Positions 4,866 to 26,154 of a DNA stretch of 64,000 nt are shown piece by piece. The position numbers and the translations under genes are program-made. The first letter of the stretch is position 1; each line of letters begins with the position of its first letter. Origin of the DNA: Granulimonas faecalis (lineage in GTDB: Bacteria > Actinomycetota > Coriobacteriia > Coriobacteriales > Atopobiaceae); NCBI RefSeq assembly GCF_022834715.1, contig NZ_BQKC01000001.1, forward strand, positions 124,001-188,000, written 5' to 3'. Under the pieces are notes generated by a model. The model was not told the origin of the DNA. It ran no database searches and worked only from the letters and a program-made list of their open reading frames with translations.

Positions 4866-5000
4866 CGCCCCTGTCCCACCACCCGGACACTTTTGTCCCA
4901 TCACTCGGGCACTTTTGTCCCACCTTGCCGCTCGGACCGCCCCGGGCTCCATCATTCTTTTGATAGGCGAAGTGACAGATGGGCCAGGCACCTCTGTCAC
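4863..5000. repeat. Composite intergenic repeat: TGTCCCACC element plus TGGGCCAGGCACC hairpin
   Basis: From the stop codon at 4863 the sequence TGACGCCCCTGTCCCACC runs on, with the TGTCCCA...GGACACTTTTGTCCCA unit repeated twice up to 4922. The same block follows the metY stop at 12976. A second element at 4972-5000 has 8-base ends GTGACAGA/TCTGTCAC around TGGGCCAGGCACC; related copies occur at 13060, 28258, 35380, 45025 and 46622. The rest of the gap to 5115 holds a weak dyad ACTGA-N4-TCAGT at 5075-5088, just upstream of the next gene. Confidence 0.7.
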
Positions 5001-22667: not shown

Positions 22668-22690
22668 CTCCCTGGTCGCATCGAATTGCC

Positions 22691-22728
22691 GAGGAGGGGT
22701 CCGTGCCCGGTGGCGCGGGCCCCTCCTC
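22691..22728 (+). terminator. Terminator of clpB, left copy of a duplicated hairpin
   Basis: GAGGAGGGG at 22691 pairs with CCCCTCCTC at 22720-22728 around a GC-rich interior. A near-identical copy (about two differences over ~38 bases) lies at 26113-26154. The four genes between the copies are AT-richer, so the pair may mark the ends of an inserted segment. Confidence 0.75.
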
Positions 22729-22732
22729 CTTC

Positions 22733-23329
22733 CTAGTCCAACGCCCTTTGCTCCTCAGTAAGGCTGGTCAAGATGCGCGTGCCTTCCAGCCTGCATCCTG
22801 GAGACGTTTCAAAAAGCTCGTTGGAAAGTGGCGTCAGTCTGTCGAGGACGTTGGGCGATTGGAGGACGGCCACGCCCTCCTCAAAACGGTCGGCTCGTTC
22901 TAACGCTATTTGTTTGCCATCGGTGAGAAACGCCAAGGCTTGGGTGTGTCGCGACTCCCACGTCAGTGTTTCGTGGTCGTAGTATTTGACGATGTCGGTC
23001 ACCGCAACGATGTCGTTTATGGGCTTGCCGATGGTCATCCGCACATCGAAGGCGCCATCGAGGTCGTTTGCCTCGTCGGCGGTCAGGTCGAATGCAAACA
23101 GTCGGCTGACCTCCTCACGAGAGCCTAAGTAGTCGATGGTCTCGAGCTCGGTAACGATAAGCCAACGCTCTGCTCCGATTTGGACCTCGGTGCCACGGTA
23201 GGAGATGGGGTTGTAGAGGAGCCTGTCATGGCAGCATGCTACGAGCTGCTGTCCGATAAGGCCCTTGAGCTGATTCAGGGTCTTCTGGGGGATAGTCTGG
23301 TCGATGATAGTGGTCGTTGGCACGGTCAT
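22733..23329 (-). CDS. Island protein of unknown function (third gene of DUF4417 operon)
   Basis: A 198-residue soluble protein I do not recognise. It has mixed alpha/beta character, no signal peptide and no obvious nuclease or ATPase motif. A segment reading VAVTDIVKYYDHETLTWESRHTQ is rich in conserved-looking aromatic and charged residues. Its start overlaps the stop of the preceding gene by 4 bases, so it is translationally coupled. Its stop lies 4 bases from the duplicated terminator. Base composition is lower in GC than clpB. Confidence 0.65.
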   Translation of the reverse strand: MTVPTTTIIDQTIPQKTLNQLKGLIGQQLVACCHDRLLYNPISYRGTEVQIGAERWLIVTELETIDYLGSREEVSRLFAFDLTADEANDLDGAFDVRMTIGKPINDIVAVTDIVKYYDHETLTWESRHTQALAFLTDGKQIALERADRFEEGVAVLQSPNVLDRLTPLSNELFETSPGCRLEGTRILTSLTEEQRALD

Positions 23330-23715
23330 CTCGCCTCCCTGCGGATTACAAAGTGGATTTTCTGACTCCGTATTTCCCCTGACCCGGTGGACCTACGTAC
23401 GTTAATGCTGATGGCGGGTGAACCGTCACTGGTACTTACCTTACGGAAGGTAATGACGGAGCCGTCGACGAGGGTTGTCCGGACCCCGTTGCCCCCGGGG
23501 AGTGGTTGTTCAACGCCGCCTGACGATATACGTAAGTAGAAGTCGGTTGCGGTTTCTAGGGGCGCGTCTGAGACGATGTTACGAATCGACGGGTCTCTGC
23601 TCAGGCCCTGAACACCAAACAGTCCGTTGTTGATCGGATAAAGGCGCAGCATGCCGTCGACGTTGTTTAGAAGGCCGCTGGTTGGAAAGGTGTTTCCAGT
23701 GTTGTCCTCTCCCAT
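23326..23715 (-). CDS. Island protein of unknown function (second gene of DUF4417 operon)
   Basis: A 129-residue, likely beta-rich small protein (repeated short stretches such as VRTTLVDGSVITFRKVS and ISINVRRSTGSGEIRSQ). No family is recognised and there is no export signal. It begins 6 bases after the DUF4417 gene and overlaps the next gene by 4 bases, so the three are one operon. Confidence 0.65.
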   Translation of the reverse strand: MGEDNTGNTFPTSGLLNNVDGMLRLYPINNGLFGVQGLSRDPSIRNIVSDAPLETATDFYLRISSGGVEQPLPGGNGVRTTLVDGSVITFRKVSTSDGSPAISINVRRSTGSGEIRSQKIHFVIRREAR

Positions 23716-23721
23716 TGCTGC

Positions 23722-24459
23722 TCACCCCTTGGCCCGGTGCTCGGTTGTCCAGTCGGGGTAATAAACAAACTTTGTCCTATCTTGTAGTCCTTCAAAAATG
23801 CGACCAGGACGAGCGCCATATACAAGCACGGTTGACGGAGAGACAGTCTCTATCATCTTTGTGAGGCCAGTCAGGAAGAAATCTTGCTGTTTATGGGACT
23901 TGCATACTCCGTATGTGCCAACGGCGACTATTCCGCCGTGAACCAAGCCGTCAAAGCAATAGCTAAAGCTTGCTTCATCCGACCAGCGGACAGTGGGAAT
24001 CACAGGGATGTTGTGTCTTTGGCATTGGAAGCCAACCGCCCTGCTGTAAAAGACCGAGCAGGCGTTTAGGCAGTTGACGCTGGGTCTCTCCAGACTGAAG
24101 TCAGGGGTCAGGATTCCATCGAAAGAGGAGAGGATGGGTATCGCCGATGCAAGGTTGTCGACGATGCCGTTAAATAAACTGTCCTTGATGAAAAAGTGGA
24201 CATAGCCGTGAGACCTGCCATTTCGAAGCTCCGCTGCTGCTCGATCGAAGGGGACAAGTCGCGAGGGGATGTCGGGGGCTGGGCACTCCATCATCTGGGG
24301 AATCCCCATTGGCCCGACGAGCCGGGCATTGTCTGCAAGCTCTGAATGCATGCCGCTTCCTGCCGCGATGCGACTGCGCTTGCGCATGCCCTTTGAAGCG
24401 TTTTGTTTCGAGGAGCCCTTTGTCGCGGGCTTCGCTTCGAACAGAGATGGTTGAAACAT
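23722..24459 (-). CDS. DUF4417-domain protein, first gene of island operon
   Basis: A 245-residue protein. A basic, disordered N-terminus (residues 1-50) precedes a DUF4417-like domain. The recognisable features are FDGILTPDFSLERPS, VIPTVRWSDEASFSYCFDG, then GIVAVGTYGVCK and VLVYGARPGRIFEGL. I know this pattern from phage- and mobile-element-linked proteins of unknown function. GGGAGG lies 8 bases before ATG. It opens a three-gene leftward operon and faces the ATPase gene divergently across 319 bases. Confidence 0.7.
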   Translation of the reverse strand: MFQPSLFEAKPATKGSSKQNASKGMRKRSRIAAGSGMHSELADNARLVGPMGIPQMMECPAPDIPSRLVPFDRAAAELRNGRSHGYVHFFIKDSLFNGIVDNLASAIPILSSFDGILTPDFSLERPSVNCLNACSVFYSRAVGFQCQRHNIPVIPTVRWSDEASFSYCFDGLVHGGIVAVGTYGVCKSHKQQDFFLTGLTKMIETVSPSTVLVYGARPGRIFEGLQDRTKFVYYPDWTTEHRAKG

Positions 24460-24778
24460 TGTTTAGCCTCCCATCTTCACACTGATTGGAAGACGAGGCC
24501 CTGCGAAGCAGTTGACCGACAGGTGGCGTCGACCGTACACTGCTGATGTGATTGGGGTCTTGGGCCTCGTTGGGCTCGTTCCTGTTGGCGCAGGGGCGAG
24601 CCGTTTTTGTCTGGGCGGTCATGTCATAGGTAGTCCCTCCTTTCCTGGGTCCACGGTACCTCTTTAGATGGTGCTGTGCAATATAAATCGATATTTCCGA
24701 TTTACTGACTACAAATAAAGAGAGTCGACATGTAAAATATGTCTATCCGAAACAGCTCTTCGCAGAGGATGAGGGACT
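24460..24778. promoter_or_regulatory. Divergent promoter region of the island
   Basis: This 319-base gap separates the DUF4417 operon from the ATPase gene. The right half is AT-rich (24670-24745) with TATAAA-like sequences. A dyad GACAT-N7-ATGTC lies at 24727-24743, close to where a shared regulator could bind. I see no convincing small gene in it. Confidence 0.4.
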
Positions 24779-26086
24779 ATGCTCCTGACGATGAAGATCA
24801 AGAATTGGAAGACGTTCAAAAACGAAGTCACCTTCTCCATGGAGGCGTCAAGAGAGAGAAAGCACTCCAATCAGGTGGCGCGGCTGTCTTCCATGTATGG
24901 GAAGAGGAGAGTGCTTCCTGCGGCGGCCATTTTTGGATATAACGCCGCAGGTAAGACCTCGCTTCTTGAGGCGCTTAGCTTTTTAAAGAATCTTGTGGTT
25001 ATTGGCACTCAGGTCAATCAGGCAATTCCGGTGAGGAGTTACCAGCTCGATCAAGAGTGTTCTCACGCTCCTACTTTTATTGAATTAAGAATCGTTAAGG
25101 AAGGCCATATATATCGATATGCAGTGTCCCTGACGCGGGGGTATGTTGAGAAGGAGCAGCTCTTTCTGGAGCGTACGCGAAGTGAGGAGCTGATTTTTAG
25201 CAGATTGGGCGACAGGGTCGAGTTTGGAAAAATGTACGACACCGAAAGGCATCGTTTCATTGCGGAAAGTACAAGGAGAAATCAACTCTTTCTACATAAC
25301 GCTGTGGAGCAAAATGCCGAGTCGTTTCGGCCTGCCTTTGATTGGTTCGCCGCTGTATTGAGGATCGAGGGCGTAGAGGACCATGGCGCTCCGTACACCA
25401 GCGTGTTGGTGAGAGACGACTTTCGTCAGTTTATCAATGAGAAGCTGAGAGACTACGGGACCGGAGCAGAGGAGTTGAGCCTCGATCATGTTCCAAAAGA
25501 GGCCATCGGGGTTCCGGTCGAGTTTCTCGATTCTGCTCTTGCAGCTGTTCCGCCAGGGGAAGAGGGGTCCATTCAAATACGGGTCGACAAGGGGGATGCA
25601 AAGGGGCCTGAAATTTATATAATTATGGTTCGTGACTCTTTCGCTGATTACTATAAGGCCACATTGCGTCACCGGTGCTCTGACGGAGAAGGAATACGAT
25701 TCGAGATGGGAGAGGAATCGACCGGCACTCAAAGGCTCGTCGAGCTACTTCCGATTTTTTTCGACTTGTGCGCCAAAGGAACGCCGGAACACAGTCACGA
25801 GCTTGTGTGGCTTATTGACGAGCTGGGACGGAGCTTTCACACGTCAATGACCTTAGGTTTGGTGCGCGAATACCTGGATTCGTGCAACAGCAACACGAGG
25901 CACCAGCTCATCTTTACGACCCACGACCTTCTGCTCATGAGCGATGACTCCATGCGCAGGGATGAACTTTGGGTGTGCAGCAAGGACCCTACGGAAGGGT
26001 CGGAGGTTGTTTGCATCGGGAAGCATCCACGGACAAGAACAGACTCGGATATCCTCAAGCTATATATGGAAGAGGTATATCGATAG
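24779..26086 (+). CDS. AAA_15/AAA_21-type (OLD/RloA-like) ATPase
   Basis: A 435-residue ABC-type ATPase. Walker A is GYNAAGKTS at residues 53-61; a signature-like segment ESTGTQRLVELLP precedes Walker B VWLIDELGRS, and the H-loop is FTTHDLLLMSD. The N-terminal KIKNWKTFKNEVTF is typical of stand-alone ATPases found in anti-phage systems and mobile elements. No TOPRIM nuclease domain is visible, and no RloB, HNH or DUF4276 partner follows. It is strongly AT-rich compared with neighbours, suggesting acquisition. AGGATGAGGG precedes the chosen ATG; a second ATG at 24791 is possible. Confidence 0.8.
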   Translation: MLLTMKIKNWKTFKNEVTFSMEASRERKHSNQVARLSSMYGKRRVLPAAAIFGYNAAGKTSLLEALSFLKNLVVIGTQVNQAIPVRSYQLDQECSHAPTFIELRIVKEGHIYRYAVSLTRGYVEKEQLFLERTRSEELIFSRLGDRVEFGKMYDTERHRFIAESTRRNQLFLHNAVEQNAESFRPAFDWFAAVLRIEGVEDHGAPYTSVLVRDDFRQFINEKLRDYGTGAEELSLDHVPKEAIGVPVEFLDSALAAVPPGEEGSIQIRVDKGDAKGPEIYIIMVRDSFADYYKATLRHRCSDGEGIRFEMGEESTGTQRLVELLPIFFDLCAKGTPEHSHELVWLIDELGRSFHTSMTLGLVREYLDSCNSNTRHQLIFTTHDLLLMSDDSMRRDELWVCSKDPTEGSEVVCIGKHPRTRTDSDILKLYMEEVYR

Positions 26087-26112
26087 TAATTCGACTATAT
26101 ACGTCAATCGTC

Positions 26113-26154
26113 GCGAGGAGGGGCCCGTGCCTGGTGGCGCGGGCCCCTCCTCGC
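26113..26154 (+). terminator. Right copy of the duplicated hairpin, terminator of the ATPase gene
   Basis: Perfect 15-base arms at 26113-26127 (GCGAGGAGGGGCCCG) and 26140-26154. The sequence matches the clpB terminator at 22691-22728 apart from about two bases. The ATPase gene stops 27 bases upstream. Confidence 0.75.

Follow-up and report, generated by a model that had tools for sequence, protein, structure and literature searches.

What is a block of four AT-richer genes doing between clpB and a PASTA gene in Granulimonas faecalis, and how did it come to be bracketed by two nearly identical hairpins? The locus lies in a 64,000-nt stretch of the genome (referred to here as the window). The DNA between the two hairpins is 3,385 bp long and carries four genes, o1 to o4. 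The ATPase gene o4 is divergent to the o3-o2-o1 operon, and to its right lie the second hairpin and then the PASTA gene. The features are as follows (window coordinates, strand, description and basis).

22690..22728, + strand: left hairpin, direct-repeat copy 1, 3' of clpB (repeat comparison, genome search, folding)
22733..23329, - strand: o1, 198-aa immunity-like protein outside known families (homologous operons have a gene in the same slot)
23326..23715, - strand: o2, 129-aa toxin-like protein outside known families (o2-family comparison)
23722..24459, - strand: o3, DUF4417 protein (Pfam PF14386, E 1e-37; PHROG 940 'nuclease', E 2.6e-35)
24572..24608, + strand: hairpin with a T-run, resembling a terminator, between o4 and the o3 operon (shared with two related modules)
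24779..26086, + strand: o4, AbiLi-type AAA ATPase of 435 aa (PADLOC AbiLi, E 1.8e-59 over residues 1-434; AAA_21, E 4e-23)
26114..26152, + strand: right hairpin, direct-repeat copy 2 (repeat comparison, genome search, folding)

Foreign composition and insertion between clpB and the PASTA gene

The GC content is approximately 0.68 outside the island and 0.50 to 0.57 inside, and the shift falls at the hairpins. The GC3 of o1 to o4 is 0.58 to 0.72 vs 0.92 to 0.98 in seven neighbouring genes. The lower GC of the island, as pointed out in the first-pass annotation, is thus borne out with borders at the hairpins, and because of the GC3 difference the 3,385-bp stretch is considered foreign DNA.

The window's genus has no other genome in our collection; the comparison was made at the family level, with other genera as relatives. 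The best clpB and PASTA matches were taken from 140 family genomes, and the 94 pairs found on one contig were compared. The two genes are on the same strand in 93 of them and at most ~1.04 kb apart in 84. Twelve gaps were read directly, including those of the nearest relatives G021, G027 and G028. In these gaps clpB is followed by the PASTA gene and o1 to o4 are absent; a single strong hairpin is present in nearly all of them. Since the relatives' gaps lack o1 to o4, the island is very probably an insertion between clpB and the PASTA gene. The first-pass annotation had read the locus in the same way, and its own counter-case, the same four genes at this position in all relatives, was not what the gaps contained. 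A search of genome contigs with the PASTA protein gave one distant match only.

The gap exceeds 1.5 kb in nine family genomes (studied genome included); these lengths also count N-terminal stretches of the PASTA protein that did not align, and some of the gaps may hold no foreign cargo. None of the other eight has hairpin direct repeats at its edges, and hairpin-guided capture at a terminator is accordingly a single case. The earlier suggestion of integration at, or recombination between, terminator copies is partly supported: the island is an insertion flanked by repeats, and capture at a terminator does not extend to a rule for the gap. As a hairpin-bracketed insert, the locus offers a clean case for studying how cassettes lacking a recombinase choose terminators.

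Several other gaps have contents of their own. In G028 (L073) a two-gene module reads like relBE, and in G027 (L072) the apparent end of the second gene of such a module remains (both by eye). A palindrome-like motif, TGTGCGTACGCAC, occurs several times over in the gap of G120 (L036 / L088; by eye). In L075 (G087:C1:93500-112500) clpB and the PASTA gene are approximately 14.9 kb apart, and the gap contains many ORFs as well as repeated intergenic sequences of its own.

Two copies of the clpB hairpin

The two 39-nt hairpins are identical at 37 of 39 positions (95%) as direct repeats, and show only 82% identity when compared as inverted repeats. This agrees with the earlier description of near-identical hairpins around the island. 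Their 38-base consensus has two matches in the window (0 expected by chance). Across the 2.23-Mb genome the bit scores are 111 and 62.6 for the two copies and 31.9 for the next independent match (E 0.03). No other strong copy exists in the genome. This was the search proposed by the first-pass annotation, and it rules out a common genomic terminator, the result that would have spoken against insertion. The predicted folding energies of the two copies are -38.8 and -49.1 kcal/mol. Neither has a real U-tract (by eye). The search for a known RNA family found none, the sole match being far under the family cut-off.

Direct repeats alone are nothing unusual in this DNA: equally high-scoring long repeats within the window fall into two interspersed intergenic families. 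The clpB hairpin belongs to neither and is not a copy of them. One family is an inverted-repeat element, GTGACAGNGGTGCCTGGCCCATCTGTCAC, found at window positions 4968, 13051, 28254, 35380, 45019 and 46622; the genome holds 50 copies at three mismatches or fewer, 28 of them exact (reversed control, 0). The second family is built on CGGACACTTTTGTCCCAATGGTCGGACACTT and is found at window positions 4868, 12982, 12998, 34277 and 34289.

Routes of entry

Direct repeats around an insert that is absent from relatives (other genera) are what an att-repeat island would have. An integrase inside the element belongs to the same definition, and none was found among the island ORFs in the ORF list or by family searches, in keeping with the earlier remark that none was visible. 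Five tyrosine-recombinase matches are found elsewhere in the same genome. There is no tRNA in the window, which rules out a tRNA-bounded island.

We tentatively prefer an explanation in which a mobile four-gene cassette inserted at the clpB terminator, between clpB and the PASTA gene, and a single insertion event left a hairpin copy at each edge. The hairpin would most likely be an att-like core, used by a recombinase that presumably acted in trans or has since been lost. Taken whole, with att-like entry and the toxin, immunity and sensor roles discussed below, this explanation is given slightly less than an even chance. Against att-like entry stand the lack of a recombinase in the island and the mismatches between the hairpin copies at 2 of 39 positions; these two differences are compatible with att-like use and with capture during repair alike.

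Illegitimate repair is a less probable explanation and still a serious one. A break at the extruded clpB hairpin would have captured foreign DNA, and fill-in of staggered ends would have duplicated the 39 bp with no site-specific recombinase involved; the reading of the cargo stays the same. It would account for an island without an integrase, for a hairpin-bracketed insert that occurs once and for a duplicated unit that is the hairpin itself. The gap also took in other cargo without hairpin repeats, such as the relBE-like pair of G028. A duplication of 39 bp is long for fill-in repair and counts against this route, as does the related module in G130 (see below) that lies beside an integrase.

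A third and rather unlikely possibility is that the cassette came in by some ordinary route, and that gene conversion or duplication afterwards supplied the second hairpin, as a terminator of o4. In its favour, the right hairpin lies 27 nt past the o4 stop codon, and the gaps of other genomes gained genes without hairpin repeats. It needs two events, yet the copies sit at both composition borders. Folded direct repeats around a gene cassette might also recall integron attC sites. This reading has next to no probability and was rejected: the core sites are missing around the repeats (no GTTRRRY within ~50 bp of either hairpin and a single RYYYAAC, by the left one), and the four genes run in two directions.

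The o3-o2-o1 operon

The DUF4417 protein o3 resembles genes of Streptococcus phages and mycobacterial phages. Domain and family profile searches matched neither o1 nor o2 to a known family, and comparison of the two families with solved structures gave no convincing match. No homologue of either was found in plasmids or IMG/VR contigs. The single-sequence AlphaFold2 model of o2 is of low confidence (pLDDT 48.6). Homologues of o2 are found in 16 of 398 Coriobacteriia genomes, the studied genome included. Most have a DUF4417 gene before them and a gene for ~190 aa after them, and the products of these downstream genes align weakly with o1 (15-21% identity). The faecal phage contig MT835627 has the o3-o2-o1 order as well. 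Across the o2 family 12 columns are invariant, including D84-G85, R91, P100 and I120-H121-F122. In G354, o2 is reduced to its C-terminal end and o1 is intact, as expected for a toxin and its immunity gene. We consider it probable that o2 is a toxin and o1 its immunity protein. With no family match and a low-confidence model, the toxin role of o2 is read from its position.

A search of 368 genomes of the class gave DUF4417 matches in 55, and 14 control genomes gave none. The neighbourhoods of 30 fetched loci were read. Five have an LHH-type protein (LHH E 5.5e-30 for the one scanned), and one example of the genes that come after such proteins, scanned as well, matched SUKH (E 3.5e-27). Ntox50 is present at two nearly identical loci (one scanned, E 1.3e-20). 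Among the remaining loci are o2, a JAB-domain protein and proteins of no known family with a glycine-rich leader. The strict leader motif lies downstream of DUF4417 at 11 of the 30 loci, upstream at two and on the opposite strand at two. Altogether a toxin-like gene was seen at approximately 21 of the 30 loci, counted by eye and without a random-gene comparison. DUF4417 genes in Coriobacteriia thus often appear to precede toxin-like genes, some of a recognised kind (LHH with SUKH, Ntox50). DUF4417 is a phage-associated family. One paper describes it as a fusion partner of the ParB-CTPase fold, in passages that make no link to toxins. Its repeated place directly ahead of toxin/immunity pairs points to a role that can be tested, and the same context exposes a set of uncharacterised toxin-like proteins, o2 included.

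A second DUF4417 gene is present in the studied genome (L125, G000:C1:432706-433227). It is located ~16 kb from a tyrosine-recombinase match (416011-416523), and no clear toxin gene follows it.

The ATPase o4 and related modules

No AbiLii/RloB partner follows o4, and o1 to o3 do not match such a family. The single-sequence AlphaFold2 model of o4 has a pLDDT of 34.8 (low confidence). Most of the more distant o4 homologues in the class have an RloB/AbiLii-like ORF directly downstream (by eye). Sixteen other homologues were checked and none has a DUF4417 gene in its 1.5-kb flanks; an association of o4 with DUF4417 is therefore not general.

Genomes of two other genera, G044 and G130, also have the divergent ATPase/DUF4417 pair. 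The G044 module, near two tRNA-Ser(tga) genes, has DUF4417 with o2 and an o1-like gene. In G130 the toxin slot is taken by a protein whose EndoU match is weak (E 2.8e-4, below the Pfam cut-off), and a tyrosine integrase is located on the far side of o4. Profile comparison found no homology between o2 and this EndoU-like protein. No hairpin direct repeats surround the related modules. The terminator-like hairpin with a T-run between operon and ATPase is present in all three (window, G044 and G130). The o4 proteins of G044 and G130 are 94.6% identical to each other and each is ~50% identical to that of the window. At the DNA level, G044 and G130 share 2,011 bp at 90% identity over o4 and the intergenic region. 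The match ends at the N-terminal end of DUF4417; the DUF4417 proteins are 29% identical and the toxins differ. Because a 90% DNA match over ATPase and intergenic region stops at so diverged a DUF4417 gene, the DUF4417-toxin operon has been exchanged as a block beside a constant ATPase. The DUF4417-toxin-immunity operon is thus an exchangeable unit, also found on phages and beside integrases. Its exchange next to a constant defence-type ATPase suggests that conflict toxins (bacterial or phage) are re-used as effectors of a phage sensor.

The cargo might work as follows. The o2 protein would be a toxin and probably a nuclease, with o1 keeping it in check, and o3 would be a toxin accessory in expression, packaging or delivery. 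The ATPase o4 would sense phage or rival DNA and limit infection, perhaps by freeing the toxin. Reports on the AbiL and PARIS ATPases make it plausible that o4 acts as a guard or sensor (PMC10440598). We infer a functional link between o4 and o2 from the recurrence of the ATPase/operon pairing. It is about equally conceivable, at somewhat under an even chance, that the o3-o2-o1 operon and o4 belong to two independent systems sharing one island by chance: DUF4417-toxin operons are mostly without o4, and o4 homologues are mostly without DUF4417. Chance sharing fits less well with the three full-length o4 proteins of at least ~50% identity (window, G044 and G130), all of which have a divergent DUF4417 operon and a terminator-like hairpin between, and with a pairing that was kept even after operon exchange. 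As the o4 genes of G044 and G130 do not count as independent cases, the pairing amounts to two or three observations.

A broader proposal is more speculative and, in our estimate, improbable. A new modular defence would be at work, in which an AbiLi-type ATPase that has lost its own TOPRIM effector commands in its place an exchangeable DUF4417-toxin-immunity operon across the divergent intergenic region, and which spreads as cassettes able to enter at a terminator hairpin.

Comparison with known systems

The AbiL abortive-infection system consists of an AbiLi ATPase and an AbiLii TOPRIM/RloB effector (PMC10440598). The PADLOC AbiLi profile matches o4 along its length, which makes o4 an AbiLi-type ATPase. 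It has no adjacent AbiLii/RloB gene, and the divergent DUF4417-toxin-immunity operon is found instead; since this partner is missing, the cassette is not a member of AbiL. PARIS combines the ATPase AriA with the TOPRIM protein AriB. The o4 protein is in the same ATPase superfamily (PADLOC AriA, E 8e-20), but AbiLi is a far better match and there is no AriB here.

MuF toxins of temperate phages (PMC5576092) are alike in that a phage carries the toxin gene, with a small immunity ORF behind it. No MuF domain was found here, and the partner is DUF4417. Polymorphic toxin-immunity systems (PMC3482391) have an exchangeable toxin with a downstream immunity gene, and the cassette may resemble them in this. 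The operon was exchanged between G044 and G130. The pairing of LHH with SUKH is listed for polymorphic toxins (PMC3482391), and LHH with SUKH and Ntox50 are found in the same slot of sister DUF4417 operons; o2 and o1 fit by position only. The term DUF4417 was not found in the text of PMC3482391. The toxins here differ in being short; a glycine-rich leader is the most that they carry, and long trafficking domains are absent (o2, at 129 aa, has no recognised N-terminal trafficking or secretion domain), and the constant partner is a separate DUF4417 protein. Lacking a trafficking domain, the cassette is not a classical polymorphic toxin system. It may work as a blend of AbiL and a polymorphic toxin system.
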